DNA of 50,460 bases from an uncultured Ruminococcus sp. (GTDB lineage Bacteria; Bacillota; Clostridia; Oscillospirales; Ruminococcaceae). Location: the NCBI GenBank assembly GCA_900315755.1, contig ONAI01000009.1, forward strand, positions 1 to 50,460, read 5' to 3'. The position numbers and the translations under genes were made by a program. Shown here one piece after another: positions 6,032 to 42,195 of the stretch. The notes below the pieces were generated by a model that saw only the letters and a list, made by a program, of their open reading frames with translations, did not search any database and was not told where the DNA came from. Position 1 is the stretch's first letter; each line of letters opens with the position of its first letter.

Positions 6032-6639
6032 CGTGACGGTAACTTTGCAGTGACAGTAACTCTACCGACACGCCACGCAGATGAAGCTATATAGACGTTT
6101 GCGAGCTATCTGCAAAGTCGGGCGTGACGGTAACATTTCTACCGTCACTACTGTCACGCTGTAATTTGCTGATAGAAAAAGTGGGAGCAGTATCCCTTTT
6201 GCAAATCGGACTGTTTTAAGCACATTTTTATCGTCCCCTAATAGTATTATGGTTCGATTTTCCTGTTTTGCATAAAATCAGGTAACAATTTCAATTCGTT
6301 CAAAACGACAATTATTAAACTCAGGGACAGCATATTTTTTGTTAAGCAATCAAGCAACTTACTGTTTGTGAAGATATATCATCGTTTGTGGGATTTCAAG
6401 GGACGGCAGGGACATCATTATTGTACACAGCAATATGCTGCCACTGCTGTCCCTGTCGAACCGACTTCTCTATCCGCAAATAGCAAAATGTGGGAGCAGT
6501 ATTCTTTTTGCATTTGGCATAAAAAATACCGCAGTCAGATTTACCGACTGCGGCGTTCGCCTTCTAATATGTATTATGGGAACTTTTTTTCATTTGCATA
6601 AAATGTGGAGACATTTATTTTTCGTTTGTGGAGACATTT
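6032..6639. repeat. Cluster of short repeats in a gene-poor stretch (origin-like)
   Basis: The stretch 5690-6760 has no convincing gene. It holds CGTGACGGTAAC at 6032-6043 and 6123-6134, AGTGACAGTAAC at 6049-6060, and the inverted forms ACCGTCAC at 6141-6148 and CTGTCACGC at 6151-6159. Further on, GTGGGAGCAGTAT occurs at 6181-6193 and 6490-6502, and TGTGGAGACATTT at 6604-6616 and 6627-6639. A hairpin at about 6528-6555 (CCGCAGTC / GACTGCGG) has a T run on the minus strand. Iteron-like repeats of this kind often mark replication origins or operator regions of mobile elements. Confidence 0.5.
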
Positions 6640-6737
6640 TTTAGCAACTATTCAAATTTATAAATCGTAAAATTAAACAACAAACAGCTTGATTTGTTGT
6701 GCATATGCACGTTTTTGTGTTGCTGCAACAAAAGCAC

Positions 6738-6766
6738 TTGTTTAAAAGCATAAGATATGGTATAAT
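6738..6766 (+). promoter_or_regulatory. SigA-type promoter of the helicase-HNH operon
   Basis: TTGTTT (6738-6743) and TATAAT (6761-6766) have a 17-bp spacer and end 32 bp before the ATG. Two perfect palindromes, GTGCATATGCAC at about 6698-6709 and a GTTGC-TGCAAC element at about 6720-6730, lie just upstream and could be operators. Confidence 0.65.
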
Positions 6767-6798
6767 TATAATATATTTTTGAATATGAGGTGATTATT

Positions 6799-8997
6799 AT
6801 GCCAATTTCTGTAGAAAACTTAAACGCCCAAACCGTTACTCCGTCTAACGGAACAAATCCGCGTACTCTTTATGAGCATCAAGTAGATGCGCTTAAAGCT
6901 ATGAACGCGATAAATAAGAAGCAAGAATTCCGTACACTACTTGTATTGCCAACCGGTGGAGGTAAAACATTAACTGCTGTCTATTGGCTTTTACAGAATG
7001 CGGTGGATAAGGGCAAGAAGATTCTTTGGATTGCACACCGTCACCTCCTTCTCGAACAGGCGGCTGATACATTTATCAACAATGCTTATACCAACATTAT
7101 GATAAACCATACATCTTTCCGTTATCGTATCATATCAGGAATGCATGATAAGCCTATTCATATCAAAACTGATGACAACATACTTATAGTCAGCAAAGAT
7201 AGCATAAACCGCAGTCTTGAAAGACTTGATAAATGGCTTAAGAATGAAGATGTATTCCTTGTTATTGATGAAGCTCATCATGCTGTTGCTAAGACATACC
7301 GTAAGTCCATACAGTATGTCGAGGAACACGCCAAATCTATGAAGTTGCTCGGACTTACTGCAACGCCATTTCGTACATCGGAAAAAGAAAGAGGTGCTCT
7401 TAACCAAATATTTACTGATGACATAGTTTATAAGATTGATTTAAAGACTCTTATTGACAGGCACATCCTCGCATATCCCAAATTCATTGAGGGGTGTGAA
7501 ACAGGTATTGAATTAGGCGATAGAATTGGACTGAAGAATATACAGGAAATCGAAAATTTTGATGCGCTGCCAAAGAATATTCAAGATTTTCTGCAAGATA
7601 ACAGGGAACGTAACGCTTTTATTGTTGATCACTATGTTAAGAATAAGGATAAATATGGTAAAACCATCGTATTTGCAATAAACAAGACAAATGCAATTGC
7701 ACTAAATAAAATATTTCATGAAAGAGGAATACGTTCAGACTATATTGTTTCTGATGTGCGTAATGCTGATCTTGGAATTACAATATCAAGCAAAGAAAAC
7801 GAGGAAAAAATCAAACTCTATCGAGATGGAAAACTTGATGTGCTAATCAATGTTAATATCCTCACCGAAGGAACTGACCTTCCACAAACACATACCGTAT
7901 TCCTTACTCGACCGACTATATCAAGAGTTTTTATGACACAAATGGTTGGCAGAGCGTTGCGCGGTGAAAAGGCTGGTGGTACAACCGATGCATATATCGT
8001 TCCTTTCATTGATGACTGGAATGGAAAGATCGCGTGGGTAAATCCGCAGTCATTACTTAAAGACGAATTTGAACCACAGGATACCCCTGCAAAGAAACAG
8101 CAGTATGAGCTGCGTGTGATTTCAATTTCCAAAATCGAAGAATTCGCGGCAATGCTTAATGAAGGTATTGATACATCTGCACTTGAACAGATCGAGATGA
8201 TAGAACGTATTCCCGTTGGATACTATATGTTCAGTACACTTGAATGGAATCATCAGATACTTGTTTATAACAGCACTCAGTCATCATATCAGTCATTAAT
8301 AGCTGACCTTCCACAGATAATGGAATTGTATGGGATTGAAGAGGAAACCATACCAGATGATGTGTTACCAGAAATGACAGATTATTGTATGGAACAGTAT
8401 TTTGATGAAGACTTGGTACCTGCTTGCCAGCGCAGCGACGTTGAACACTTGCTTCTATTCTATGCACAGAAAGCGGTTGATCCTTTATTTGTTCCTCTTG
8501 ACAATATTGTGCGGAAAAAGCTGGATGTCTCTGAAATTGCCAAGAAATTTGAAGAAGAGGCTATGACAGGTCGTGAACGCAAGGCATATCTTGATAGCTT
8601 ATGGGATGCCGAGGACAGCGTATATAAGATCTATTATTCCAGTCCATATATTTTTAAACGCATGATAGATATTGAAATGGACAAACTCGAGGGATATATG
8701 GAAACTGACTATGCTGCACCACAAACAAAGGCTGAACTTCGCGAACTGGAAGACCTTCCATTAGAGGAAATCATCAATAGGTATCCTAATGTTGGCATAC
8801 CGCTGAAAATGAGAGTATTTGATAAGGCTCGCAACGCTGACGGTAATTATGTATGTGCAAGCTGCAAAAAAGTATTTAGCAACAGAAAGGACTTGCAAGT
8901 TGACCACATTAAGCCAATGGCTAAAGGCGGAAGAACTGTTGAATCCAATCTTCAGATATTATGCCGTTTCTGTAATCAGCGGAAGGGTGATAAATAA
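6799..8997 (+). CDS. SF2 helicase fused to a C-terminal HNH nuclease
   Basis: The 732-residue protein starts with a superfamily 2 (type III restriction/DEAH-like) helicase: Walker A PTGGGKT at residues 51-57, DEAH at 157-160, TATPFR at 187-192, and a helicase C-terminal lobe with the arginine-finger block GRALRGE. About 280 residues of unassigned sequence follow. The last 50 residues are a zinc-bound HNH nuclease (CASC...DHIKPMAKGG...SNLQILCRFCNQRKGD). ATG 6799 is chosen because GAGGTG lies 7 bp upstream; GTG 6790 overlaps that site. The stop codon shares one base with the next start, so the two genes are translationally coupled. A DNA-translocating or unwinding nuclease for phage defence is inferred from domains and from the neighbouring recombinase. 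No methyltransferase is present, so ordinary restriction-modification is unlikely. Confidence 0.88.
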   Translation: MPISVENLNAQTVTPSNGTNPRTLYEHQVDALKAMNAINKKQEFRTLLVLPTGGGKTLTAVYWLLQNAVDKGKKILWIAHRHLLLEQAADTFINNAYTNIMINHTSFRYRIISGMHDKPIHIKTDDNILIVSKDSINRSLERLDKWLKNEDVFLVIDEAHHAVAKTYRKSIQYVEEHAKSMKLLGLTATPFRTSEKERGALNQIFTDDIVYKIDLKTLIDRHILAYPKFIEGCETGIELGDRIGLKNIQEIENFDALPKNIQDFLQDNRERNAFIVDHYVKNKDKYGKTIVFAINKTNAIALNKIFHERGIRSDYIVSDVRNADLGITISSKENEEKIKLYRDGKLDVLINVNILTEGTDLPQTHTVFLTRPTISRVFMTQMVGRALRGEKAGGTTDAYIVPFIDDWNGKIAWVNPQSLLKDEFEPQDTPAKKQQYELRVISISKIEEFAAMLNEGIDTSALEQIEMIERIPVGYYMFSTLEWNHQILVYNSTQSSYQSLIADLPQIMELYGIEEETIPDDVLPEMTDYCMEQYFDEDLVPACQRSDVEHLLLFYAQKAVDPLFVPLDNIVRKKLDVSEIAKKFEEEAMTGRERKAYLDSLWDAEDSVYKIYYSSPYIFKRMIDIEMDKLEGYMETDYAAPQTKAELRELEDLPLEEIINRYPNVGIPLKMRVFDKARNADGNYVCASCKKVFSNRKDLQVDHIKPMAKGGRTVESNLQILCRFCNQRKGDK

Positions 8998-9512
8998 TGG
9001 TACACACTAAATACAAGTTTACTCCTCAAGATATTGCAGTATATCTATTGATAGCTGATTTGCCGCGTTCTCGTGAAGATAAGATAATTGAAGATTTTTT
9101 TCAAGAATACAATGATGAAATAGTTTTCAACTATCGTAATGACTTTCTTGAGTTACGCCGCCAAATACATAATTCAATGATATTACTTGAAATGAGTGAT
9201 GAAGAATATGCTGAAACTCAATTGATAATGCGAGAACTCCAAATTGAAAAAACAGAATACGAGCCTAATTACTTTGGAGCATACTTTAAACTTATAAAAC
9301 TTCAATTGTTATATTCAGGAAAAGATTATCAACGCATCAAACTCAGAACCCTTTTGAATGATTTTGGCTATAAAAGGCGAACTGAAGCCTTAGTTAATAG
9401 CATAACGCGTGCGATGAAGGCACTAAACCTACAGCCTTATTTAAAGCAATATGAACCATGTGATTTGGCAGAAATTACACTTGATCAGATGGTAATAATA
9501 AGGCTTAATTGA
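8997..9512 (+). CDS. Unknown partner protein of the helicase-HNH
   Basis: The 171-residue protein is soluble and rich in charged and aromatic residues, with mostly helical-looking sequence. I recognise no family. Its ATG at 8997 overlaps the helicase stop by one base, and a strong terminator follows it, so these two genes form a closed two-gene operon. The C-terminal half (KLIKLQLLYSGKDYQRIKLR... FGYKRRTEALVNSITRAMKAL) could be a small DNA-binding helical domain, which is only a guess. The AT-rich base use matches the helicase and differs from the core genes to the right, suggesting a shared foreign origin. Confidence 0.75.
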   Translation: MVHTKYKFTPQDIAVYLLIADLPRSREDKIIEDFFQEYNDEIVFNYRNDFLELRRQIHNSMILLEMSDEEYAETQLIMRELQIEKTEYEPNYFGAYFKLIKLQLLYSGKDYQRIKLRTLLNDFGYKRRTEALVNSITRAMKALNLQPYLKQYEPCDLAEITLDQMVIIRLN

Positions 9513-9527
9513 TACCCATCAGTATTA

Positions 9528-9562
9528 AAAGCCGCCACTTATAATATACAAGTGGCGGCTTT
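9528..9562 (+). terminator. Terminator of the helicase-HNH operon
   Basis: A perfect 13-bp stem (AAAGCCGCCACTT and complement) with a 9-nt loop ends in a TTT run, 15 bp after the stop codon. Confidence 0.85.
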
Positions 9563-9610
9563 CGTCCTATTCGGTTTGTTTTCCTTTACTACGATAAGAA
9601 TATGCTACAC

Positions 9611-9752
9611 CCCTTTCCAAAGACTTTTATTTCGTTTTTTTCGCAATGGTATAGGTACTAACAAAAAAAAATAAAAACCGGAAGTTTACATTACTTCCGG
9701 AAATTTTATACCATTGCGAAAAAAACCAGACGAAAGTTTTAGGAAGGGAGTT
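9611..9752. repeat. MITE-like inverted-repeat element, solo copy
   Basis: A 20-bp arm starting GTTTTTTTCGCAATGG (9634-9653) is matched by its exact reverse complement at 9707-9726. A second internal hairpin (CCGGAAGT...ACTTCCGG) lies between the arms. Imperfect outer arms extend to CCCTTTCCAAAGACTTTTAT on the left and AAAGTTTTAGGAAGGGAG on the right. Related arms occur at 43591-43690 and 45128-45212. The element has no coding capacity and fits a small non-autonomous repeat. A terminator-like hairpin (TTGAGGGA...TCCCTCAA) follows at 9752-9788, just past the yebC stop. Confidence 0.7.
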
Positions 9753-9792
9753 TGAGGGAGAACCCTTTTTCAAAAGGGTTTCCCTCAATAAA

Positions 9793-10491
9793 TTACTGAT
9801 AAACTTCCATATGGGCACAGCACGTATGATACGCTGTTATTCTTCCTCTATGCTCCTCGTCTGTGAGGGTAGTGTAGTTAGCCGGGATCATCTCAGTTTC
9901 AGCTGAGAGTACATTATATCCCTTGCCTGCAAGTCCCTCGCGGAGGGCGTGAACGTTCTCGGGAGCACATTCGATCTCGACAGTCTCTTCATTGATGTCG
10001 AAATCATCGCCTCCGAATTCAAAAACATCGTCCATAACAGCGTCTTCGTCAAGACCTGTATTTTCGAGGATAACGATACCCTTTCTGCTGAACATGAACG
10101 ATACACAGCCAATAGTACCGAGGTTTCCGCCGAACTTATCAAAATAGTGACGAACCTCTCCAGCTGTTCTGTTTCTGTTATCTGTAAGACACTCAACTAT
10201 AACTGCAACGCCGTTAGGGCCGTATCCCTCATAAGTGATATTCTCGTAATTGTTCTTATCCTCGCCGCCGGCAGCCTTCTTGATAATTCGCTCGATGTTA
10301 TCGTTAGGCACGTTGTTTGCCTTAGCCTTAGCAATAAGGTCACGGAGCTTAGCGTTGTTATTCGGATCAGGACCGCCCTCTTTTACGACAACTGTGATCT
10401 CTCGACCGATCTTAGTGAAGATCTTGCCCTTTACAGCGTCTGTTGCTTCCTTCTTACGTTTGATATTGTTCCATTTTGAATGACCTGACAT
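9793..10491 (-). CDS. yebC: YebC/PmpR family protein
   Basis: The 232-residue protein begins MSGHSKWNNIKRKKEATDAV and keeps the family's N-terminal, GCVSFMF and EIECAPE segments. YebC-family proteins are reported to act as regulators and as factors helping ribosomes through proline-rich stretches; here the role is by homology only. The start has AGGAGTG upstream. The C-terminus is odd: after MIPANYTTLTDEEH the usual LIDxLEDxDDVQxVYHN ending is missing and replaced by a short divergent tail containing AYHT, which meets the repeat element just downstream. The next gene upstream lies 12 bp away. Confidence 0.9.
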   Translation of the reverse strand: MSGHSKWNNIKRKKEATDAVKGKIFTKIGREITVVVKEGGPDPNNNAKLRDLIAKAKANNVPNDNIERIIKKAAGGEDKNNYENITYEGYGPNGVAVIVECLTDNRNRTAGEVRHYFDKFGGNLGTIGCVSFMFSRKGIVILENTGLDEDAVMDDVFEFGGDDFDINEETVEIECAPENVHALREGLAGKGYNVLSAETEMIPANYTTLTDEEHRGRITAYHTCCAHMEVYQ

Positions 10492-10503
10492 TGTTTAACA
10501 CTC

Positions 10504-10986
10504 CTATCTGATTATTATTCGTTTATCTATTTCACTTTCATCGGGTATCTGAAATATCCCCGCGAATTTCTCTTCAAGTCCCTTGTCAACGTAATATGCG
10601 CTGACCTTTCCTTCACTCACAAGCCGATTTCTCTCAGCGATACGCTGTTCCCAGAGTTCATCGGAAATATCGAGGTAATGCAGCTCGCAGGAGACCTTGT
10701 TCTGCGAATAGAACCTTCTGGCATACTCTCTCTCAGCGGAGGTCCAGAAGCCCCAGTCGAGGATAACGTTATTTCCGGAAGCAATGACCTCCAGCGATTT
10801 ACCGTAGAGGTAAGCCTGAGTACGGCGGACATATTCATCCATCCTGTCGCCCGCACCCTCCGGGAACAGTGAAAGAGTTATCTCGTCAACTGAAAGTATA
10901 ACAGCATTGTTCTTGTTTCTCAGACCTGCCGCATAAGCGGTCTTGCCGCTGCAAAGCTTACCGCAGGTCATGTATACCTTAGCCAT
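10504..10986 (-). CDS. P-loop kinase-like ATP-binding protein
   Basis: The 160-residue protein has a Walker A motif GKLCSGKT at residues 9-16 and a DE pair in ILSVDEIT. It also has a zeta-toxin/gluconate-kinase-like layout with DWGFW in the middle and ERNR in the lid region. This AAA_33-type family includes small-molecule, nucleotide and RNA kinases, and the substrate cannot be read from the sequence. The start codon overlaps the end of Mini-III by 8 bp, so it is translated from the obg-mrnC transcript. Confidence 0.75.
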   Translation of the reverse strand: MAKVYMTCGKLCSGKTAYAAGLRNKNNAVILSVDEITLSLFPEGAGDRMDEYVRRTQAYLYGKSLEVIASGNNVILDWGFWTSAEREYARRFYSQNKVSCELHYLDISDELWEQRIAERNRLVSEGKVSAYYVDKGLEEKFAGIFQIPDESEIDKRIIIR

Positions 10987-11389
10987 CGTTTTCCGTCTCC
11001 CGTGATATTATAACGTCGAAAATCTGCGTGATGCGTTCATTTTTTCCGATAAGGAAGAGATAGCCGAAAAGGCTCTCTATCGCCGTTGCTCTGCGATACT
11101 GAACAGCCTCGGCGTGTTTCGGAACGGTATTTCCGGTAGCGTTCCTTCCGCGTTTCAGGACTGCAAGTTCATGCTCATCGAGCATATCAGCCACAAGGTC
11201 ATAGGCTGCCGCCTGAAACTCAGCGCACACCAGCTTTATCTTCGCAGAGTGAAGCTTTGCGACAGGCATATTCGCCTTTCTCAGGAGGTATTCCCTCACC
11301 AGCGTATCATAAACACTGTCGCCGAGAAATGCAAGGCTGAGTGGACTGTAACTATTTGCCTCACGCACTGATAAGTATTCTTTTTCCAT
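10979..11389 (-). CDS. mrnC: Mini-ribonuclease III
   Basis: The 136-residue protein is a lone RNase III catalytic domain without a double-stranded RNA-binding domain. The signature SPLSLAFLGDSVYDTLVREYLL holds the metal-binding acidic residues, and AVQYRRATAIESLFGYLFL provides the second conserved block (E in AIESLFGYL). The family matures 23S rRNA in Firmicutes. The start at 11389 (MEKEYLSVREAN) is chosen over upstream in-frame codons that would overlap obg. It sits 1 bp after the obg stop. Confidence 0.9.
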   Translation of the reverse strand: MEKEYLSVREANSYSPLSLAFLGDSVYDTLVREYLLRKANMPVAKLHSAKIKLVCAEFQAAAYDLVADMLDEHELAVLKRGRNATGNTVPKHAEAVQYRRATAIESLFGYLFLIGKNERITQIFDVIISRETENDG

Positions 11390-11390
11390 A

Positions 11391-12689
<1,299 letters not shown>

Positions 12690-12697
12690 CTAAAGAA

Positions 12698-12724
12698 AAA
12701 TCCCAAGCGGAAAGCTCGGGATTT
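12698..12724 (-). terminator. Terminator of the rplU-prp-rpmA operon
   Basis: On the minus strand an AAATCCCGAGC...GCTTGGGATTT hairpin is followed by TTTTTCTTT, between the rpmA stop and the obg start. Read-through may feed obg. Confidence 0.8.
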
Positions 12725-12743
12725 ATTGTCTTGTAATGCGTGA

Positions 12744-13028
12744 TTACTGCTCGATCTCGTAAACTGAGACCTTCTTACGGTCACGGCCGTAACGCTCGAA
12801 CTTAACCTTACCGCTAACTGTTGCGAATAAAGTATCGTCTGAACCGATACCAACGCCCTCACCGGGATGAATGTGAGTACCTCTCTGACGAACGAGGATA
12901 TTGCCAGCCTTTACAAACTGACCGTCAGCTCTCTTGACACCGAGTCTCTTAGCCTCAGAGTCACGTCCGTTCTTAGTTGAACCAACACCCTTTTTATGAG
13001 CAAAAAACTGCATACTGATCTTGAACAT
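12744..13028 (-). CDS. rpmA: 50S ribosomal protein L27 with cleavable N-terminal extension
   Basis: The 94-residue protein is L27 ([28 protein letters not shown]...). It carries the Firmicute N-terminal extension MFKISMQFF before AHKKG. In Firmicutes this is removed between F9 and A10 by Prp so that the N-terminus can reach the peptidyl transferase centre. The start has GGAGGTG 7 bp upstream. The protease gene is directly upstream in the same operon. Confidence 0.97.
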
Positions 13029-13030
13029 AC

Positions 13031-13339
13031 TTACACCTCCGAAATAGTGATTTTGATTGTTTCGGGAAATTCCTCAAGGATAGCCTCGAAATGTTCTTTA
13101 AGACGGTCAAGCAGACGTGAAGCCTCACTTCCGCCCGATGTCATACATCTTATGACATTCTCACCGACCTTAACATCCGGCTTGCAGCCGAATTCATCGA
13201 GGATATTCACCATCAGCTGAACTGCTGATGAGACAGCAGCACACGCAACGTCCCTGCCGCTTTCAGCAAATCCGGCGTGACCGCTCAGTTCAAATCCTTT
13301 CAGACTGCCCTTTGATCCATAGAATTCAGCACGGATCAT
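13031..13339 (-). CDS. prp: Ribosomal-processing cysteine protease Prp
   Basis: The 102-residue protein has the conserved GHAGFAE block with catalytic His21 and DVACAAVSS with catalytic Cys33. It is the processing enzyme for the L27 pro-sequence and lies between rplU and rpmA, as in most Firmicutes. It overlaps the end of rplU by 4 bp (ATGA) and is followed 2 bp later by rpmA. Confidence 0.95.
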
Positions 13340-13647
13340 GCCTTGATAGATTCGATCTTTACCTGAGTGTAAGGCTGTCTGTGACCCTGCTTCTTCTTCT
13401 CACCCTTCTTAGGCTTGTAAGTGAAAACTGTGATCTTCTTAGCCTTGCCGTTCTTAATAACCTTTGCTGAAACAGCTGCACCGTCAACGTAAGGTGTACC
13501 GATCTTGAGTCCATCGTCTGCTCCGAGAGCAACTACCTTGTCAAAAGTAACTGTCTCATCAGCCTCTGCTGCGAGCTTTTCGATGAAGAGAACGTCTCCC
13601 TCGTTTACCTGATACTGCTTTCCGCCGGTTTCAATAACTGCGTACAT
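13336..13647 (-). CDS. rplU: 50S ribosomal protein L21
   Basis: The 103-residue protein is full-length L21 ([18 protein letters not shown]...; [10 protein letters not shown]-type C-terminal motif seen as [18 protein letters not shown]). It binds 23S rRNA in the large subunit. It is the first gene of rplU-prp-rpmA, preceded by a structured leader of the L21 type and a strong promoter. Confidence 0.97.
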
Positions 13648-34192: not shown

Positions 34193-34251
34193 AAAAAAGT
34201 AAGCGAGCTCTCGCGAGCGTCAACGTGGAAGCCCGCGGGGGCTCCCCGCTG
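34193..34251. repeat. 59-bp repeat abutting the displaced tRNA-Ala fragment
   Basis: This segment is the exact reverse complement of 50402-50460, at the right edge of the window. It begins AAAAAAGTAAGCGAGCTC and ends GGGGGCTCCCCGCTG. Reading from the tRNA side it is a GC-rich hairpin followed by a T run, which suits a tRNA terminator that has become a dispersed repeat. Confidence 0.85.
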
Positions 34252-34296
34252 GTGGAGCATAGGGGACTTGAACCCCTGACCCCCACACTGCCAGTG
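34251..34296 (-). other. attL: displaced 3' end of tRNA-Ala
   Basis: These 46 bp repeat the 3' part of the tRNA-Ala at 41194-41269 (CCA end, acceptor 3' arm, T arm, variable loop and part of the anticodon stem-loop). They then diverge and lack the 5' half. Mismatches are only at 34267 and 34269 (T loop TTCAAGT here, TTCGAAT in the intact gene). The 27 bp at 34270-34296 are identical and must contain the crossover. Confidence 0.88.
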
Positions 34297-34391
34297 GATT
34301 TTCAAGCTTTTTCGGACTTGTTCATACTTAGCGTATTCGTCTATAAATCGGAATTTCCTTGTTGTATTCTATTCAGAGTTATAATAGTTTG

Positions 34392-34431
34392 TAGTGCCCT
34401 TAGTGCCCTCAAAGTGCCCTCATAGTGCCCT
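34392..34431. repeat. Left arm-type integrase sites
   Basis: The motif (T/A)AGTGCCCT occurs four times in the same orientation at 34392-34400, 34401-34409, 34412-34420 and 34423-34431, spaced 9-11 bp. Two more copies lie near the other end at 41104-41123. This is the expected arrangement for tyrosine-integrase arm sites. Confidence 0.75.
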
Positions 34432-34531
34432 GAAATTATCGTCAGAATAAGCTATAACTTGATCATTTAAATGATATTATACACTCTTGCAAGTGTAATG
34501 TCAATGAATATTTTTAGTATCGTATAATAAC

Positions 34532-34590
34532 AAAAAAACATCTGCACTCACCCCAGAGCAAAGGAGAAAAAACGAGTGCAGACGTTTTTT
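34532..34590 (-). terminator. Terminator of the satellite operon
   Basis: A long stem pairs AAAAACATCTGCACTC with GAGTGCAGACGTTTTT (one mismatch), with A and T runs on both strands. It lies 78 bp past the last minus-strand gene. Confidence 0.82.
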
Positions 34591-34667
34591 GAAAGAAGCG
34601 TTGCTTAAAGCTATATTTATTATATCATATTTCAGCCGAAAAGTCAAGGCTTTTGGCTATTTACCGC

Positions 34668-34892
34668 TTATTTCTTTATACAGTTGAGTGCATAAGCTCT
34701 TGCATCTTTCAAGGTTGTGAACTGCTGCTGACCTATACGGACAAACTTTGCGCCGATACGGTCAAACCTTTGGACTGTTGCTTTGCCTGTCGCTCTGTCA
34801 ACGGTCAATATAGATTTACGCTTTACGTCCTTACCGGATGCAGCTTTCAGGCGTTTCCGCATCTGCTCTCTCCAAGCTGTTGTAACTGCCAT
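34668..34892 (-). CDS. Small basic unknown satellite protein
   Basis: The 74-residue protein is strongly basic (many Lys and Arg) with a helical N-terminus (AWREQMRKRLKAASGKDVKRK) and a C-terminal helix (LKDARAYALNCIKK). I do not recognise it. The start has GAGGTGAAC upstream, and the preceding gene ends 15 bp away. As the last gene of the late operon, beside the terminase subunit, it might act in packaging or DNA binding; that is inference only. Confidence 0.7.
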   Translation of the reverse strand: MAVTTAWREQMRKRLKAASGKDVKRKSILTVDRATGKATVQRFDRIGAKFVRIGQQQFTTLKDARAYALNCIKK

Positions 34893-34907
34893 TGTCGTTC
34901 ACCTCGC

Positions 34908-35510
34908 TCAATCAAGATACTTTGTATAAGCCGGCATTTTATCAGGATGTTTGCGGACAAATTCAGCTATATCAGGGTGTTCGCTGAGAATATCCCTGTA
35001 AACTCTGCCGCTGCCGTCCACGTTGTTAATGTATCTGTTACCGTATTCAATACGCATTGCGCTTATGAATGACGAATAGATCATAGCTGTCGCAGATATC
35101 GCCGCAGGGCTGTTCAGCTCTCTTTCTCTTGCTGCCTTTCGCTCCTCGAATTTTGCCCTTGAAGCATTGAACGTGGAAATTATACCGTCTCTTATACCTG
35201 ACTTGAATTTGAGTATTAAAAGATCACTGAGTCCTCTGATAAGTCCTGTCTCGTTATAGTAACGGCAGATAATATAGTTACCGTGTATAGCCGGTGAGCC
35301 GTCCGAATAGTTCACGCCGGTAACAGGTTCATCCTTTCCGGCAGGAGCTTTGAGGAGTGAAACTATTTCCTCGTCTATTTCCTCATTTTCTATGATAAGT
35401 TTATCCGGAGTGCATCCAAGACGTGCGGCACACTGTCGGAGCTTATCCTCGTTCTCTACAAGTTCCACGACCTCGGGAGCGTGATTTGATGTTATCAGCA
35501 TTATTTTCAT
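34908..35510 (-). CDS. Unknown satellite protein
   Basis: The 200-residue protein has two parts. The N-terminal 100 residues (MKIMLITSNHAPEVVELVEN...GNYIICRYYNETGLIRGLSD) faintly recall the DUF3846 small phage proteins. The C-terminal helical and charged half (FNASRAKFEERKAARERELN...DILSEHPDIAEFVRKHPDKMP) matches nothing I know. The start at 35510 is chosen because GAGGT lies 8-9 bp upstream and it begins 4 bp after the terS stop; an earlier in-frame start would overlap terS by 50 bp. It is cotranscribed with terS. Confidence 0.72.
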   Translation of the reverse strand: MKIMLITSNHAPEVVELVENEDKLRQCAARLGCTPDKLIIENEEIDEEIVSLLKAPAGKDEPVTGVNYSDGSPAIHGNYIICRYYNETGLIRGLSDLLILKFKSGIRDGIISTFNASRAKFEERKAARERELNSPAAISATAMIYSSFISAMRIEYGNRYINNVDGSGRVYRDILSEHPDIAEFVRKHPDKMPAYTKYLD

Positions 35511-35514
35511 TTGT

Positions 35515-35922
35515 TTATACCTCATTTCCGGCATTGCTGCCATATTGTTTTTCCCATTTTTCAATCACCTTTTCAAGCGGTGACTGCTGTTTTGGCGGTG
35601 TTACCTTCTGATCGGATAGACGTTTTAAGGCTGCCGGACTTAGTCCTAACTCATTACTGAGCTTTCGGCAGAGTTCGCTTAAGTCTGTCCACGCTTGCAG
35701 AAGGGGATTTTTTCCGGTATTCCTTGCCCCTCGGTCTGACACCTTTTCAATGACCGGTTGTGCGCCTTCGTCCACGTATTGCTTGTATATCCTGTCACGT
35801 TCTGCCAGCGTTTCAGCGTAAACATTGATTATCAGGCTGAATTCAGACTTGTAGATGTTGAGTGCTTCAAGCTGACTGACGATTTCTTCCTTGTATGCTT
35901 TTATAGCGTTGTTTTCGTGCAT
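35515..35922 (-). CDS. terS: P27-family phage terminase small subunit
   Basis: The 135-residue protein has the Terminase_4/P27 pattern: a helical N-terminus, then AQPVIEKVSDRGARNTGKNPLLQAWTDLSELCRKLSNELGLSPAALKRL, with the NPLL..W block and the final GLSP-x-x-x-x-R/K-L. A small terminase recognises the pac or cos site of DNA to be packaged. There is no large subunit, portal or capsid gene near it. An isolated terS is the hallmark by which PICIs divert helper-phage packaging. The tail (PPKQQSPLEKVIEKWEKQYG) is a likely partner-binding helix. The ATG at 35922 follows AAGAAGGTG. Confidence 0.78.
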   Translation of the reverse strand: MHENNAIKAYKEEIVSQLEALNIYKSEFSLIINVYAETLAERDRIYKQYVDEGAQPVIEKVSDRGARNTGKNPLLQAWTDLSELCRKLSNELGLSPAALKRLSDQKVTPPKQQSPLEKVIEKWEKQYGSNAGNEV

Positions 35923-36093
35923 TTTTCACACCTTCTTTCATATAATGAATTGTTATTGTCACTACAATTGAACGTCGTTGCAGTGCTTTCTCTGCGCTTA
36001 TGGGGTATTTTATATTATTTTTATCTCAGATTTATGAGAAGTTACTGCCACCGTTTCAATTTACCGTTGGTATCATTATCTGGACTGGGGGTC

Positions 36094-36352
36094 GTAGTTG
36101 CTACGCCTAAAATAAGCTACTACGCTTAAGCAACGAAATATATGGGAATTCTCTTGTTTGTAGCAGCGTAGTAACTATAATCCTATAAAGTAGTATTTTG
36201 TGCTGTATTCAAAACATTATCCGTTATACTATCTAAAAATATTTTTTTATAAAAATCAGCTACTACGCTTCTACAATTGCCATAATTGGCTATATACCTT
36301 AGTTTGAGCGTAGTACCATAATATTCATCATAGCTTCTACACCTACTACGCC
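36094..36352. other. Candidate satellite replication origin with two iteron clusters
   Basis: The motif GCTACTACGC or its complement recurs. Left cluster: 36101-36106 (partial, in a CGTAG-TTG-CTACG palindrome), 36116-36127, and inverted at 36165-36175. Right cluster: 36258-36270, inverted at 36307-36317, and 36342-36352. Between them, 36176-36257 is strongly AT-rich. The origin lies immediately 3' of the primase-helicase gene, as SaPI origins do, where the Rep protein melts the AT-rich segment between iterons. Confidence 0.75.
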
Positions 36353-38499
36353 TTGTATTTCTTATCAGATAAGTATTCGGAAGCTATCCTCACCGGTAAC
36401 TTATACACGGTACTCGGTACGCCGTCCATACGCATTTTGCGAGGCTCATATCCAAGCTTACGCAAAACCCTTCCGATATTATCCGCAGTAAAGTTCCTGA
36501 GTTCGTCGCTGTACCGCATCTTGAAATCCGTTGCCGTAAAGTATTCCTCTCTGATCTCATAGCCGTTTCTTGGCTCTTGAATCATTGACAGAATATCTGC
36601 TATTTCCTGCTCTCCCTTCAATGCTTTGGAATGATGCTTGTTGAGGGAATTAAGCTGTTCAACTTCTTCTCTTGTAAGACGGAAGCAGCCTGAAAGAGTT
36701 TCGCCCCTTTTCAGTTCATTATCAACGATCACCTTGACCTCTGCCCATAATTGAAGGAAATCAAAGTTTCTGAATGTATCTCCCTTTATATCAATGAATC
36801 TATTATCATCTATCCTGATAGTCCAGAAACGTCTGTTTCCTGTTTCATCGACCAGAAAGTTCATATCATTTGTACTTCCGCAGAAGCTTGTACGCCGTGC
36901 GCTTGTCTGATATGTCCTTGCATACGGAAGCCGGTATTCATCGGTAGAATTAGTGATAAACGCTTTCAGAAGGTCAATATCCTTCCTAAGAGTGCTGCCT
37001 ATCTCACCAAGTTCACAAATCCATTTTGAAGTAAGCTGAATCGTGCTGTCCTTGTTCCTCGGGTCATAGCATCTTCCCTCTCCGAAATAATTAGGATGAA
37101 GCGCCAGTGCTTTCAATAGCTGAGTTTTTCCGAATCCCTGCGCTCCGCAGAGTACAAGCACACCGTCAGCATCAAACGGCTCTTCCTCTGAATTCATCAG
37201 TATTGCATAAGACTGCATCAGCCATTTTCTCAGAAGTATCATTGAGAAACTGTCATTCTCTATCGTAAGCATTTTGCATAATTCAGGGAATCTGCCTATA
37301 CCGTCCCATTTGGTGGAATTAATCATTTCAAGCAATGGATTGTAAGTGTTGAGCAGTGCGATATTTGATATTACAGAAGATACATTCTGAATATTCACGC
37401 CCTTGTAATCAGGATAATTCACCTTAAAATCATCTATTATCTCTTGCACGATCACCTGCGGAAGTGCGGCTTTTGAATACTCCGTAAACTTTACAGGCGA
37501 ATCTATCTCCATATCGTGGGTGATGATATTAGTGCGGATTTTTATGCTGTATTTGCTGAAATACTCTTCAAGCACGGGTCTTGTGAGATATTTCACATCG
37601 CTGCTCTTTTCAGAAGATATGCTGTTCTCAGCACTTGTTACCGTTTCGGGGATTTCATACAGCTTAGAGCGCTCAACAGCTTCACAGAGCATTTCCCTTG
37701 CCTTATCAAGTCCGACAGCAGAAGCAATATCCGAAATATCACCCTTGTTCTGCACATCAGGATATATCTCTTTAGCAGATATTGACCTGACCTGAATTCC
37801 GGCAGCACAAAGACTTCCTGCGGTATCGTGACCGGCTTTTGTTCCTGCATCATCGTTATCAGAAAGCACTATACAATTTTTCCCTGAGAGAAAGCTGTTA
37901 TACTCGGCTTTCCATTTGCTTCCTGCTCCGTTAGGACTTGTAGTTGCTGTGAATCCCATTTTTTCAAGAGTTTCAGCGTCCTTTTCACCCTCGGCGATAT
38001 AGACGGTATCACTGCCGGATATGCGGTCAAGATGATATAACGGCGGCTTGAATTTGCCAAGTCCTGCTTTTTTGTTGAACCCACCGTTTTCATATCTGTA
38101 CCAGAGAGCAGTTTTCTCACCTATACTGAATCTATCACAGGGAGAATGGAATTTGTATATCACTTTTTTCGCAACAGGTTCGCCTTTTTCGTCACAATAG
38201 ATATGTTCACGAATATCTGCACAGTCCTTCCAGTTCTTCTTTTTACCGGACAGATACAGTTCTTTAGGCTTTATACCTTTCGCATTGAGAATATCCTTGT
38301 AGCTGCATTTGTGCTTGCAGTCAATAAGGATTTGAGCCTCGCCGCTGCTGTTCCTGCCAACTGATATATACAGTTTATCCTTACCGCATACAGGGCAGAC
38401 AGCTCTGAGTTGATTTCCGCTTTCCTGCTTAATCGGAAATTTACCAATAAAGCTATCATACTTTTCTCGTTCTTCGTTAGTGAGTAATTCAGATATCAT
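36346..38499 (-). CDS. Primase-helicase: zinc finger, TOPRIM and VapE/VirE-type ATPase
   Basis: The 717-residue protein has a primase-type zinc finger at the N-terminus (C35-x2-C38, C61-K-H-K-C65). A TOPRIM nuclease/primase core follows (AEGEKD at 169-174, SDNDDAG at 213-219). From about 390 comes a VapE/VirE-family superfamily 3-like ATPase with Walker A GAQGFGKT (452-459), Walker B ICELGE, and the family block TDEYRLPYARTYQTSARRTSFCGSTNDMNFLVDETGNRRFW. It is the replication initiator candidate of the satellite, acting on the iterons just 3' of the gene; the last iteron overlaps its stop codon. It overlaps the excisionase stop by 4 bp (ATGA). Confidence 0.92.
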   Translation of the reverse strand: MISELLTNEEREKYDSFIGKFPIKQESGNQLRAVCPVCGKDKLYISVGRNSSGEAQILIDCKHKCSYKDILNAKGIKPKELYLSGKKKNWKDCADIREHIYCDEKGEPVAKKVIYKFHSPCDRFSIGEKTALWYRYENGGFNKKAGLGKFKPPLYHLDRISGSDTVYIAEGEKDAETLEKMGFTATTSPNGAGSKWKAEYNSFLSGKNCIVLSDNDDAGTKAGHDTAGSLCAAGIQVRSISAKEIYPDVQNKGDISDIASAVGLDKAREMLCEAVERSKLYEIPETVTSAENSISSEKSSDVKYLTRPVLEEYFSKYSIKIRTNIITHDMEIDSPVKFTEYSKAALPQVIVQEIIDDFKVNYPDYKGVNIQNVSSVISNIALLNTYNPLLEMINSTKWDGIGRFPELCKMLTIENDSFSMILLRKWLMQSYAILMNSEEEPFDADGVLVLCGAQGFGKTQLLKALALHPNYFGEGRCYDPRNKDSTIQLTSKWICELGEIGSTLRKDIDLLKAFITNSTDEYRLPYARTYQTSARRTSFCGSTNDMNFLVDETGNRRFWTIRIDDNRFIDIKGDTFRNFDFLQLWAEVKVIVDNELKRGETLSGCFRLTREEVEQLNSLNKHHSKALKGEQEIADILSMIQEPRNGYEIREEYFTATDFKMRYSDELRNFTADNIGRVLRKLGYEPRKMRMDGVPSTVYKLPVRIASEYLSDKKYKA

Positions 38500-38705
38500 T
38501 TTATCACCTCACTAACATCATCTGTCAAAGAATGTGAATTGAGGTATTCGTCCAGCGAATCACAGTTGACAAGTATCTTGTTTCCGGCTCTTATTGCACG
38601 GACAGTACCATTCAGACACCATTTTCTTACGATGTAAGAGGACAGACCTCTTGTTTTAGCTGCCTGAATTATCGGCAGCATTTCCGGTATTTTATTATTA
38701 ATCAT
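38496..38705 (-). CDS. Excisionase-like helix-turn-helix protein
   Basis: The 69-residue protein has a MerR/Xis-type winged helix pattern: MLPIIQAAKTRGLSSYIVRKWCLNGTVRAIRAGNKILVNCDSLDEYLNS. Such small proteins direct tyrosine integrases toward excision or act as regulators. AAAGGGG lies upstream of the ATG. It comes after the 52-residue gene in the minus-strand operon and overlaps the primase start by 4 bp. Confidence 0.82.
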   Translation of the reverse strand: MINNKIPEMLPIIQAAKTRGLSSYIVRKWCLNGTVRAIRAGNKILVNCDSLDEYLNSHSLTDDVSEVIK

Positions 38706-38807
38706 CAGCTTTTAGCAACCCCTTTCGTAAAAGAGTTTATTTCCGGCTTTTTTCAACGGATAAACATTGAATATCGGAAAATGTTTACAAAAAGTTAATA
38801 TTATCCG

Positions 38808-38836
38808 TTGCACCTGCTCCGCCAGTATGATATAAT
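38808..38836 (+). promoter_or_regulatory. SigA-type promoter of a short antisense RNA
   Basis: TTGCAC (38808-38813) and TATAAT (38831-38836) have a 17-bp spacer. The promoter points opposite to the flanking satellite operon. Confidence 0.75.
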
Positions 38837-38842
38837 AGGAGT

Positions 38843-38920
38843 AAAGCAGGTACTATCTTTGTGTGCTTAGGTATTTGCTTAAACGTCTGACGGTTGCCGC
38901 CGTTGGACGTTTTTTATTTT
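38843..38920 (+). ncRNA. Candidate 75-80 nt antisense RNA in the satellite
   Basis: The RNA would start at about 38843 and end at a 12-bp hairpin (AACGTCTGACGG at 38882-38893, loop TTGCCG, CCGTTGGACGTT at 38900-38911) followed by TTTTTATTTT. No start codon with a ribosome binding site is inside. It is antisense to the untranslated segment and stop codon of the 52-residue gene, upstream of the excisionase, so it could control early-operon expression. Confidence 0.65.
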
Positions 38921-39072
38921 GCCTGATTGGAAAGCTGACCTTTTTTCTTCCAGTAATTAGCGGTATGCTGTTTGACTTTCTCCTTGTTAGCCCTTCGCCA
39001 TTTTCGGTAATACTCACGCCTTGCAAGGATAGCAGCCTGTTCTTCCTGAGTAAGATTTGAAATATCTTTCAT
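38914..39072 (-). CDS. Short basic phage-type peptide, first gene of the satellite operon
   Basis: The 52-residue product starts MKDISNLTQEEQAAILARRE and continues YYRKWRRANKEKVKQHTANYWKKK. This is a helical, very basic pattern (YYRxWRxANKxKVxxHxxxYWxKK) often seen in small open reading frames of Clostridial phages; its function is unknown. The start has AGGTGGTG 6 bp upstream, a strong site. The stop lies in the T tract of the antisense RNA terminator. It is the first gene transcribed leftward from the divergent switch. Confidence 0.8.
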   Translation of the reverse strand: MKDISNLTQEEQAAILARREYYRKWRRANKEKVKQHTANYWKKKGQLSNQAK

Positions 39073-39097
39073 TTTATCACCACCTAAAAAATAATAC

Positions 39098-39145
39098 TTG
39101 ACTTACGTCTAAATATAGTATATAATAATAAACAGAAAATAACAA
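39098..39145. promoter_or_regulatory. Overlapping divergent promoters of the satellite switch
   Basis: Plus strand: TTGACT (39098-39103), 17 bp, TATAAT (39121-39126), reading to the Xre regulator and integrase. Minus strand: TTGTTA (39140-39145), 17 bp, TATACT (39117-39122), reading to the replication operon. The two -10 boxes overlap, so the promoters should exclude each other, as in a lysogeny-type switch. Confidence 0.75.
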
Positions 39146-39215
39146 GTAGAACAAAATAATAATTTCACACCATTATCGTGAATATAGTACAGAATAATAT
39201 ACCGAGGTGAAATAG

Positions 39216-39836
39216 ATGATATTTAATAATGAAACAAGCATAATTCTTTCAAAAAGGCTAAAGGAACTTAGAGAAGAAAGAGGTATCTCACAGGAAACGC
39301 TACTTGAACAACTCAATTCAGCAGGAATAAAAATTAGCCTTATTTCATTAAAAAACTATGAGGTGACAGAACAGCACCATTCTAAATTTCTCGCCGTAAA
39401 TGGAATGAATACAGAATTTCTTTTCAATATTGCTGAATTCTATGGCGTATCAATTGACTATCTTCTTGGACGTACAGATACACGTTCTCCGAATCCTGAT
39501 ATACAATCAGCGTGTGAATATACCGGACTATCTGAGAAATCAATTGAGAAGTTAAAAGGGATAACTCATTTTGAATTCGATAATTCCGTAAACACTGAGA
39601 ATGCTAACATTATTGATATGTTTATCCAATCAAAATATTTTGAAAATTTAATATCACTGCTATTAACCTTATATAATTGTTCGGCTGAAGGCGGTGATAT
39701 TGAGAGTTCAAAAAACTTTGAAGAGTTTACTAATATAGGTCGTTCCAATATTGCTTGCAAATTGGCGCGATCAGATTTAAAAGATATTATGACTTATATT
39801 TGTGACGAATTCGACAGGAGGAAAAACAATGGCTAA
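39216..39836 (+). CDS. Xre-family regulator (candidate master repressor)
   Basis: The 206-residue protein has an N-terminal Cro/CI-type helix-turn-helix (SKRLKELREERGISQETLLEQLNSAG...SLISLKNYE...LFNIAEFYGVSIDYLLGRTD, residues 8-90). The C-terminal helical region of 110 residues is of unknown type. By position it is the counterpart of the SaPI Stl or phage CI repressor: divergent from the replication operon and cotranscribed with the integrase, whose ATG it overlaps by 8 bp. No protease-like domain or Ala-Gly cleavage site is evident, so derepression by a helper protein rather than by RecA is plausible but not shown. Confidence 0.85.
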   Translation: MIFNNETSIILSKRLKELREERGISQETLLEQLNSAGIKISLISLKNYEVTEQHHSKFLAVNGMNTEFLFNIAEFYGVSIDYLLGRTDTRSPNPDIQSACEYTGLSEKSIEKLKGITHFEFDNSVNTENANIIDMFIQSKYFENLISLLLTLYNCSAEGGDIESSKNFEEFTNIGRSNIACKLARSDLKDIMTYICDEFDRRKNNG

Positions 39837-41055
39837 TATCTCAGAACGTAAAGACAAAGACGGTAATATCATCAGCTATCGCATAAGAGTTTCCAGAGGA
39901 TATGACGGTCAGGGAAATAAATTGAAGCCTTATGAAAAGACTTTTAAGCCTGAAAAGGGAATGACTAAACGTCAGATTGAAAAGGAACTGCAAAGACAGG
40001 TCACACTTTTTGAAGAGGAATGTAAAAACGGTAATATAAGCAGCGCCCCTAATATGAAGCTGAGAGACTTCTGCAATACCTACCTCGATATAAAAACCGG
40101 TATCTTATCACCAAGAACATACGAATACTATACCAGAGTTATCAACGATCTCATAATTCCGTTATTAGGGCATATCAGAATCACTGACCTCAAACCTGCA
40201 CACGTTCAGCAGTTCATCAAATATATTCAGGATAACAGCGAAAAGAAGCCCTCCCCCTCAACGATCAAGCGCAAAGTTGCTATCTTGCAGTCAATACTCC
40301 GTCAGGCTGTAAAGCTCGGTTTGATACAGACTAACCCTGCAAATGCAGAACGCCTTACAATGCCTAAGCAGATCGCTCCGCAGGTAGAAATCTTCACACG
40401 TCAGGAAGCTGTTGAAATGCTTTCCTGCCTTGAAGATGAACAGTTGCAATACAAGGTTATTGTCTATCTTGCTATTATGTCAGGCGCTCGTGAAGGTGAA
40501 CTTGTAGGACTGAAATTCTCTGACGTTGATTTCATCAATCACAGGATAACGATTGAAAGAAGCGCATACAAGCTTACAGGTCAGCCAGTGCAGACTAAGC
40601 CGCCAAAGGACAGCGATGTCAGAACAGTCAAAGTCGATGAATATACCATTGACCTGATAAGGCAGCTTAAAGCTGAGAAGGAACGTGAACAGTTCAGGCT
40701 CGGTACAGCTTGGCAGGGAGATGAATGGCTGTTCACGACTTGGAACGGCTCTATAATGTTTCCCTCAACGCCCTCGCATTGGTTCAGAGACTTCCTGAAA
40801 CGTCACAATTTGAAGCACAGGAAGTTCCACGCCCTGAGACATACATCTGCTACACTGTTACTTCTTGCAGGAACTAACGTCAAGCAGGTTTCCGGTCGTT
40901 TAGGTCACGCCGACCTCAGAATTACAAATCAATATCTGCACTGCATCGCTGAGGCTGACGAAGCCGCCGCCAACGCTCTTGGAAGTATGCTGATAACTCA
41001 GAAAAAGAATCCTCAGGAGCAGGAACAGCCGCACACAATACAGAAAACAGGATAA
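39829..41055 (+). CDS. int: Tyrosine recombinase / integrase
   Basis: The 408-residue protein has an AP2-like arm-binding N-terminus (YRIRVSRGYDGQGNKLKPYEKTF), a SAM-like core-binding domain (about 75-170), and a catalytic domain. The catalytic residues are Arg221 (MSGAREGEL), His334-x-x-Arg337 (HALRHTS), His360 (LGHADL) and Tyr369 (NQYLH). It would integrate the element at the 3' end of tRNA-Ala. MANISERK is the start because AGGAGG lies 8 bp upstream. The gene ends 139 bp from the tRNA, with two arm-type repeats between. Confidence 0.95.
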   Translation: MANISERKDKDGNIISYRIRVSRGYDGQGNKLKPYEKTFKPEKGMTKRQIEKELQRQVTLFEEECKNGNISSAPNMKLRDFCNTYLDIKTGILSPRTYEYYTRVINDLIIPLLGHIRITDLKPAHVQQFIKYIQDNSEKKPSPSTIKRKVAILQSILRQAVKLGLIQTNPANAERLTMPKQIAPQVEIFTRQEAVEMLSCLEDEQLQYKVIVYLAIMSGAREGELVGLKFSDVDFINHRITIERSAYKLTGQPVQTKPPKDSDVRTVKVDEYTIDLIRQLKAEKEREQFRLGTAWQGDEWLFTTWNGSIMFPSTPSHWFRDFLKRHNLKHRKFHALRHTSATLLLLAGTNVKQVSGRLGHADLRITNQYLHCIAEADEAAANALGSMLITQKKNPQEQEQPHTIQKTG

Positions 41056-41103
41056 CAGAAAAGGGACTGTCCGAATGTGGATAGTCCCTGCTTTTTTTGG
41101 CAA

Positions 41104-41123
41104 TAGTGCCCTCATAGTGCCCT
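41104..41123. repeat. Right arm-type integrase sites
   Basis: TAGTGCCCT occurs at 41104-41112 and 41115-41123, in the same orientation as the four left copies. Confidence 0.7.
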
Positions 41124-41193
41124 AAACGTATTCAGTTAAAATAAATAAGCACTCCCTCACATTGATAAAGTGCCTATTTACAGCTGTTTGTTT

Positions 41194-41269
41194 TGGTGGA
41201 GCATAGGGGATTCGAACCCCTGACCCCCACACTGCCAGTGTGATGCGCTCCCAGCTGCGCTAATGCCCC
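41194..41269 (-). tRNA. tRNA-Ala (anticodon GGC), attR of the satellite
   Basis: On the minus strand the 76-nt cloverleaf has acceptor GGGGCAT/ATGCTCC (one G-T pair), D arm GCGC/GCGC, anticodon stem TCACA/TGTGG with loop CTGGCAG (GGC, reads GCC), T arm AGGGG/CCCCT and encoded CCA. The 3' part lies inside the 46-bp att repeat, so the element supplies the 3' end of the present gene. Confidence 0.93.
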
Positions 41270-41431: not shown

Positions 41432-41605
41432 ATGCGGAACGTTACAACAGAAACAGCTGTTAAGAATCAGGTCGCTTCTGCCCGTATGGAAGGGATAAGC
41501 TTCAGCAGGGAATCGCTCGATATAATCAGAAAATATACCGATAATTCAATTTCACACGAAAAACTCATTGAATTGGTAACAAGGCTCTGTGCCCGGAAAT
41601 CGTAA
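41432..41605 (+). CDS. VbhA-type antitoxin of Fic
   Basis: The 57-residue protein carries SARMEG at residues 16-21, which fits the Fic inhibition motif (S/T)-x-x-x-E-(G/N). The Glu of this motif reaches into the Fic ATP site and blocks adenylylation. The remainder is helical (SRESLDIIRKYTDNSISHEKLIELV). ATG 41432 is chosen because AAGGAG lies 9 bp upstream; TTG 41423 touches that site. Its stop overlaps the fic ATG by one base (TAATG). Confidence 0.82.
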   Translation: MRNVTTETAVKNQVASARMEGISFSRESLDIIRKYTDNSISHEKLIELVTRLCARKS

Positions 41606-42195
41606 TGGCTGTATACAGCATAGAAGGCTGCCGTGACAGCTGCTATCCTGATACAACAGTCCTCGTGAATAAGCTCGATATACGCGAACAATCACTGCTC
41701 AGCGAGGCTGAATCAATAATCGTGACCTCGTGTTCGGCACTCATAGAAAAGGAAATGTCCTTCGAGGACGTTGATTTCGATTATTACAGGAACATACACC
41801 GGATGATATTCGGGGATCTTTACGAATGGGCAGGAAGTCTCAGGAAGATAAATATGTCGAAAAAGGGCACTGTTTTCTGCGAGTGCAGTGAACTTGAAAG
41901 ACTTGGCAGACTCAAATTTGAACGCCTGAAAAATGCCGACTACCTCTGCGGACTTCCGGACGATGCTTTCCTCGATCAGCTTGCCGATTTCTACCATGAA
42001 ATGAATATGCTTCATCCGTTCCGCGAAGGCAATGGACGTACACTGCGTCTGTTCATAACCCTTCTGGTACGCAATACCGGCAGAGACATCGACTTCACAA
42101 GATGCGATACGGATGTACTGATAATAGCCGCAGTCAAAGCGGCACAGGGCGATATTTCCCTTCTCAGGGAGGTTCTGGAAGAGATAATACTATAA
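41605..42195 (+). CDS. Fic-family adenylyltransferase toxin
   Basis: The 196-residue protein has the full Fic motif HPFREGNGRTLR (residues 137-148), preceded by the FxxLYxWAG-type block (IHRMIFGDLYEWAGSLR). Fic toxins transfer AMP from ATP to target proteins such as DNA gyrase and topoisomerase IV. The antitoxin directly upstream and the one-base overlap fit class I Fic modules (VbhT/VbhA). The catalytic His is present, so the toxin should be active. It sits just outside the satellite's attR end. Confidence 0.93.
   Translation: MAVYSIEGCRDSCYPDTTVLVNKLDIREQSLLSEAESIIVTSCSALIEKEMSFEDVDFDYYRNIHRMIFGDLYEWAGSLRKINMSKKGTVFCECSELERLGRLKFERLKNADYLCGLPDDAFLDQLADFYHEMNMLHPFREGNGRTLRLFITLLVRNTGRDIDFTRCDTDVLIIAAVKAAQGDISLLREVLEEIIL

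Follow-up and report, generated by a model that had tools for sequence, protein, structure and literature searches.

In a 50,460-nucleotide stretch of DNA from an uncultured Ruminococcus sp. (contig ONAI01000009.1 of assembly GCA_900315755.1, positions 1 to 50,460; henceforth the window), we found an island of about 6.94 kb that is flanked on either side by a copy of the 3' end of a tRNA-Ala(GGC) gene. We interpret it, with a probability of roughly 0.72, as a phage satellite resembling the phage-inducible chromosomal islands (PICIs), one that has its own small terminase subunit (TerS) of a probable cos-packaging lineage and would borrow the large terminase subunit (TerL) and an HNH nuclease from a helper phage. 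A first-pass annotation of the DNA letters had proposed a small satellite with the layout of Gram-positive PICIs, and this proposal is supported by an empty insertion site in a near relative, by the gene order and by the profile match of TerS. The features of the island, in coordinates of the window, are:

34250–34296: left attachment (att) core, which repeats the tRNA-Ala 3' end apart from T-arm variants at 34267 and 34269
34393–34431, plus strand: four AGTGCCCT repeats just inside the left att core, candidate integrase arm sites
34533–34590: 17-bp palindrome, 94% complementary, perhaps the terminator of the leftward operon
34668–34892, minus strand: orphan gene p74, sub-threshold HipA_C match only
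34908–35510, minus strand: orphan gene of 200 amino acids, ATG 4 nt past the TerS stop (the mechanical open reading frame (ORF) runs from TTG 35564, 218 amino acids)
35515–35922, minus strand: terminase small subunit, PF05119/P27 (PF05119 5.6e-13, phrog_361 1.3e-23)
36092–36351: origin-like region, an AT-rich stretch with a set of CTACTACGC-type iterons on either side
36346–38499, minus strand: primase-helicase (VapE 1.1e-46, phrog_1313 1.1e-61)
38496–38705, minus strand: excisionase-like small helix-turn-helix (HTH) protein, xis (weak matches to TIGR01764, 1.3e-4, and HTH_17, 8e-5, both below cut-off)
38914–39072, minus strand: p52, a 52-amino-acid protein and first leftward gene (phrog_14214, unknown function, 2e-7)
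39073–39215: divergent control region with a 25-bp direct repeat (39112–39136 and 39181–39205), candidate operators
39216–39836, plus strand: Xre/RstR-type regulator in the position of the PICI repressor (phrog_8 'transcriptional regulator', 1.3e-16)
39829–41055, plus strand: tyrosine integrase, by profile matches, from ATG 39829 (the mechanical ORF starts at GTG 39802)
41105–41123, plus strand: two AGTGCCCT repeats just inside the right att core, candidate integrase arm sites
41194–41240: right att core, 47/47 identical to attB of the relative G003
41194–41269, minus strand: tRNA-Ala(GGC), the intact target gene

Insertion into tRNA-Ala(GGC) and the empty site

The 6.94-kb element is an insertion into the 3' end of tRNA-Ala. 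1) The flanking direct repeats, initially measured as 46 bp, span 47 bp (34250–34296 and 41194–41240) and are identical at 45 of 47 positions, with mismatches at 34267 and 34269; the intact tRNA-Ala next to the integrase is present as had been annotated. 2) In the near relative G003 the joined flanks of the window match 213 of 219 bases, and the intact tRNA-Ala follows the left neighbour, which both genomes share, without an island between them. The flanking DNA of G003 is 93–95% identical to that of the window, and its genome gave no match to either the primase or TerS. Polymorphism at the att site had been set beforehand as a test of the satellite proposal, and G003 provides it in the form of an exact empty site. 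This locus was pieced together from two contigs, with the position of the island junction falling inside one of them; the first contig ends 19 bp beyond the tRNA, and the contig with the other flank (C14) opens with a different element. 3) The G+C content is 40.8% in the island vs about 46% in both flanks, and all eight island genes are open reading frames. As a separate observation, the different element of G003 (L173, positions 1–1575 of C14) abuts the chromosome about 10 bp past tRNA-Ala, and the 9-bp sequence TATAGCATA is present at both contig ends.

As the two variants lie in the left core only, the crossover probably took place within the 17 bp 34250–34266/41194–41210, and the left core is probably the incoming copy. 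Its T-arm variant is shared by the tRNA-Ala of G098 (L123) and, in G052 (L127), by an att-like copy, and G098 also has the most similar integrase (89% identical). Hence, the host from which the island came may have had this tRNA allele. The AGTGCCCT repeat occurs nine times in the window, six of them just inside the att cores, and nine copies were reached in 0 of 100 shuffles. We rejected these arm repeats as a family trait, because they are not shared by five other loci checked: four lack them and the fifth (L124) has one copy, off its att core.

Genes, control region and candidate origin of the island

The Xre-type regulator and the integrase are read rightward, and p52, xis, the primase-helicase, the iteron region, TerS, the 200-amino-acid gene and p74 follow one another leftward. 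We call the island PICI-like because this int-xre // xis-primase-ori-terS order equals the published Gram-positive PICI layout, int-rpr // xis-pri/rep-ori-(terS), with xis placed by weak profiles only. The known satellites are cited here from excerpts of the published papers (PMC6092414, PMC5052747, PMC10803314), and according to these the Gram-positive PICIs, including the Staphylococcus aureus pathogenicity islands (SaPIs), likewise have int and the repressor one way and xis, primase/rep, ori and sometimes terS the other way, have iterons round an AT-rich stretch, and are described there as lacking structural and lytic genes (PMC6092414).

The first-pass assignments of an Xre regulator and of a primase-helicase with a VapE-type ATPase are borne out by the profiles listed above; the RstR-like match of the regulator (30.1 bits) is under that model's cut-off of 80, the Toprim matches of the primase-helicase are below cut-off, and its cysteine-rich N-terminal start was judged by eye. 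The excisionase call falls short at the level of profiles and gains from context: relatives of xis are found in L033, L046, L125, L128 and L129, and stand beside int and xre in, for example, L033, L046 and L125. Divergent promoters find a counterpart in hexamers on both strands (39098–39126, plus strand, 11/12; 39145–39117, minus strand, 9/12), with such matches being only slightly commoner than in shuffles (23 vs a mean of 16.8, standard deviation 3.8). A relative of p52 with 72% identity occupies the same place in L125, and relatives of the integrase align from 39829.

The octamer TACTACGC is present in five copies (three on the plus and two on the minus strand) within 36118–36351 and nowhere else in the 50 kb, and the last iteron overlaps the stop codon of the primase; in a first-order Markov control five copies of any octamer arose in 3 of 2000 runs. 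The two iteron sets are separated by a stretch of 81% AT (36176–36258), a richness equalled by 0.05% of the 83-mers of the window and slightly exceeded in the control region at 39085. This organisation matches the PICI origin as described in the excerpts, where iterons in two sets flank an AT-rich stretch beside rep (PMC6092414), and makes the region a candidate origin.

For the 200-amino-acid protein encoded after terS, neither PHROGs nor phage records nor IMG/VR yielded a relative; its DUF3846 match is sub-threshold, and its single-sequence structural model is unusable (mean predicted local distance difference test (pLDDT) score 51). The palindrome at 34533–34590 is absent from the terminator-scan list. 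Profile scans covered, of the mechanical ORFs, the eight named island proteins; in agreement with the earlier reading, none of the eight matched a family of capsid, portal, large terminase, tail, lysis or relaxase proteins, and families for capsid morphogenesis, interference or virulence were not hit either. No HNH-motif ORF was found inside the island.

The small terminase subunit and the distribution of island modules

TerS belongs to the PF05119 family (49.6 bits, where the cut-off is 24.7) and scores 32.7 bits with the narrower P27 model TIGR01558, under its cut-off of 45.6; its earlier family annotation is upheld by the PF05119 profile. The predicted structural model has a mean pLDDT of 87.6, and a second look at its structural comparison placed HK97 TerS at ranks 2 and 3. 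A profile search against PDB sequences returned five matches (E 0.34–0.71), none of them terminases, and the TerS tree gave no firm placement of the window protein. The motifs GA.N..KNP and ELGLSP are retained. An alignment-based scan of IMG/VR provided TerS loci for comparison (the best 80 of 342). TerL lies beside TerS in 80/80 of these and was not recognised in the island. Further, an HNH-motif ORF is found upstream of TerS in 21 of the 30 loci with at least 1 kb upstream, and the 10 that were tested among these 21 all match PHROG HNH families. Such TerS-TerL modules with an upstream HNH ORF suggest HNH-assisted cos packaging for the lineage, and we accordingly describe the TerS lineage, on sequence grounds, as HNH-associated and probably cos-type, which narrows the first-pass inference of a cos- or pac-type helper.

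The window terS was found in one of 125 genus genomes (its own) and in four of 396 family genomes counting its own. ORF reading at one place per genome, with a second place in G484 left out, showed that TerL adjoins TerS in the other three. PF05119 as a whole matched in 48 of the 125 genus genomes. At 29 PF05119 loci besides the window, TerL lies within 1.5-kb flanks in 21 (weakest E 1.3e-4) and, where longer stretches were fetched, at distances of up to about 11 kb in another five; L426, L429 and L432 had no TerL in the fetched stretch, and two of these adjoin phage-type genes by eye. Four further PF05119 places (L434–L437) have TerL in three cases. One other locus, L049 (G081:C32, 1720–8458), has xre // xis, a VapE primase with an internal stop and a P27 TerS from a different subfamily; no TerL was found in its 18.9 kb, it adjoins restriction-modification-like genes by eye, and it is probably a decayed prophage. 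With no TerL in the fetched stretches of L049 and L426, solitary P27 TerS genes may exist beyond the island studied here, whose terS is the only one seen in an intact island, as neither L049 nor L426 is one.

The remaining modules are spread differently. Primase relatives occur in 29 of the 125 genus genomes, the own one included, and G084, G092, G093, G095, G111 and G116 have 5–9 matches each (copies or fragments) to Toprim-VapE primases, which suggests many satellites or phages per genome. We compared 160 primase loci (the best 80 of 463 from IMG/VR by alignment and 80 of 117 from genome contigs): small profiles found TerS or TerL in eight of these 160 loci, the two together in L350 only, and a solitary TerS of the window family in none. 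Single-sequence scans of IMG/VR with the primase, the integrase and the post-terS protein found no relatives; TerS and the primase also have relatives in phages. The integrase was matched at E <= 1e-60 in 59 of the 125 genus genomes, its own included, by relatives 45–89% identical, and 13 of 18 fetched integrase loci contain tRNA-Ala(GGC) or tRNA-Thr. Phage records gave 2202 integrase matches, all below 60% identity and 30–34% identical among the 15 matches listed. By its sequence relationships, the integrase lineage thus looks like an island lineage.

Four islands at the same att site show both repeat copies. L124 (G101:C12, 112–11796) has an integrase 86% identical to that of the window, a Mob_Pre relaxase and, by eye, a Rep-like gene, so that related integrases are in use both in a mobilisable element and in phage satellites. 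L125 (G059:C38, 5712–16765) is an 11-kb island at this tRNA-Ala with a 72% identical integrase. L046 (integrase 69% identical) has a primase, an ERCC4 nuclease and, by eye, a HicAB-like pair, and L126 has a few small genes only. The nearest relative of the replication module itself is in G051 (L033); L033 and L046 are primase-bearing islands without a relative of the window terS. The first-pass annotation had held that structural genes attached in close relatives would speak against a satellite. The outcome is mixed: none were recognised in L033, L124 and L046 (mostly by eye, with single proteins profiled), and L125 carries TerL and a tape measure. Gram-positive PICIs are characterised by attachment sites that prophages never use; the elements read through at the present site are four islands, one of them with TerL and tape measure, prophages there not having been systematically searched. 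A single att site with related integrases thus carries a relaxase, TerL and tape measure, a nuclease, or primase and TerS, and in such a set the exchange of phage satellites with mobilisable elements can be compared directly.

Comparison with known satellites and weighing of alternatives

Under the satellite interpretation, the Xre protein would repress the leftward operon in the quiet state and a helper phage would lift this repression. Int and Xis would then excise the island as a circle, and the primase-helicase would start replication at the iterons beside its own 3' end, yielding concatemers. The island TerS is envisaged to recognise a site on the island and to recruit the helper TerL, probably together with the helper HNH nuclease, by which island DNA would enter helper particles. 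The island has no recognisable gene for capsid resizing, so its DNA would likely be packaged as multimers into heads of full size, by analogy to PICMI115 (6110 bp; excerpt of PMC10803314).

For Gram-positive PICIs the excerpted literature (PMC6092414, PMC5052747) gives two packaging routes: the pac SaPIs encode a TerS of their own, and in the other route the island carries a pac or cos site. We tentatively raise a third, rather less probable than not, in which the island's own diverged HNH/cos-lineage TerS and the helper TerL and HNH would cut an island-specific cos site; it would be a variant of the own-TerS route with the chemistry of the carried-cos-site one. We found no description of a PICI with its own HNH/cos-lineage TerS in the open-licence literature searched. 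According to the excerpts, it is the cos site of the helper that satellites of cos-type phages use; if the proposal is true, a cos-lineage TerS encoded by the satellite itself would offer another means of diverting cos packaging. The small size of the island permits gene-by-gene dissection.

In comparison with Gram-positive PICIs and SaPIs the island is distinguished by its size (6.9 kb vs about 15 kb), by a TerS of PF05119/P27, a family that in the loci examined is part of TerS-TerL modules of phages, often with HNH, and by its Ruminococcus-type host. With the cos SaPIs SaPIbov4 and SaPIbov5 it would share dependence on a cos-type helper; in these a region with the phage cos site takes the place of the terS operon, of which the 3' part remains (excerpt of PMC5052747), whereas the island terS is intact. 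The phage-inducible chromosomal minimalist islands (PICMIs) of Vibrio, typified by PICMI115, resemble it in size class, few genes and, in the excerpted description, the lack of capsid remodelling (PMC10803314). However, PICMI115 is described there as lacking a terS homologue and lying next to fis (PMC10803314), and the island, with a terS and a tRNA-Ala target, falls outside that family. The Streptococcus satellite phages Javan431 and Javan652 share the order int, regulator // regulator ... VapE-type helicase. None of 24 phage-collection records matching the window TerS is named a satellite, nor is any of 55 matching a streptococcal P27 TerS, six of which are unannotated, one of these being 11 kb. 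The Clostridia island L190 (JAFTSG010000003.1, about 3655–13356) has, by eye, the order int, xre // small HTH genes, primase and far-end terS, with a primase 31% identical to that of the island; unlike in the latter, its TerS is of the Terminase_2 family (4.9e-21) and its primase is separated from terS by several additional genes.

Several observations weigh against the satellite interpretation. TerS keeps 17 of the 26 positions conserved across 75 other distinct sequences, with five of the nine lost residues clustered at 82–89, and its branch is the second longest in the tree (1.59, median 0.13; that of the L061 phage protein is 1.79), so its function could be relaxed. Pfam at E 0.01 found nothing in the one HNH-type ORF searched. 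A helper search found neither a PF03354 TerL nor a relative of the L053 TerL in the own genome, a negative that is weak because this genome is a draft (92% complete, 123 contigs); a PF03354 control matched in 3 of 14 genomes. The search of related genomes suggested by the first-pass annotation yielded G003 without the island and no second terS-bearing copy among the 125 genus and 396 family genomes. L125 has phage genes, namely a TerS-like one, TerL (Terminase_3, 4.3e-32) and a 683-amino-acid tape measure (phrog_6900, 8.7e-59); no capsid or portal gene was recognised there, the gene set is unusual for a satellite, and as its replication and packaging genes differ from those of the window we read it as modularity. 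The size of 6.94 kb is well under the 12–15 kb of typical PICIs, and with induction and packaging as predictions the label 'PICI-like' is preferred to the earlier 'PICI', though the layout fits; the mismatch is not decisive, as the excerpted text says 'typically' (PMC6092414) and PICMI115 indicates that such small sizes are workable (PMC10803314). Finally, the phage contig L350 has the order primase, TerS, TerL, portal, from which a prophage deletion could produce the same primase-terS junction.

This last point belongs to the principal rival, an unlikely one in our judgement: a decayed prophage that kept its genes for integration and control, the primase and terS, and lost all that followed from TerL on by deletion. 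L049, with its interrupted primase, P27 TerS and no TerL found, shows what a decayed relative might look like. However, the L350 TerS is only remotely related (2e-5), and in the island both att copies, the eight reading frames and the iteron region are intact; its integrase is close to those of genus islands and only remote in phage records, no phage relative was found for the gene after terS, and sister islands share its ends and differ in cargo. Somewhat less probable again is a satellite or integrative element with a TerS that acts as a decoy poisoning the terminase of incoming phages, in interference or host defence. The cluster of lost residues, the lack of a recognised TerL or an HNH-motif ORF in the island, and the SaPI protein Ppi, by which satellites attack helper TerS (excerpt of PMC5052747), are in keeping with a decoy; the place of terS behind the origin, that of packaging genes in PICIs, the retained motifs and the Terminase_2 TerS in the equivalent place of L190 speak for a packaging role. 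Least probable, and improbable outright, is an integrative element spread by conjugation or mobilisation with terS as a passenger: the relaxase of L124 beside a closely related integrase at the same att site and the primase-bearing islands without a terS relative (L033, L046) would suit it, yet no relaxase or mobilisation family was found in the eight scanned proteins and terS would remain unexplained.

To the right of the tRNA, outside the island, the window encodes a Fic-type gene (41605–42195) that matches the PADLOC candidate PDC-S04 (9.7e-65), and a near-identical copy of it is present in G003.

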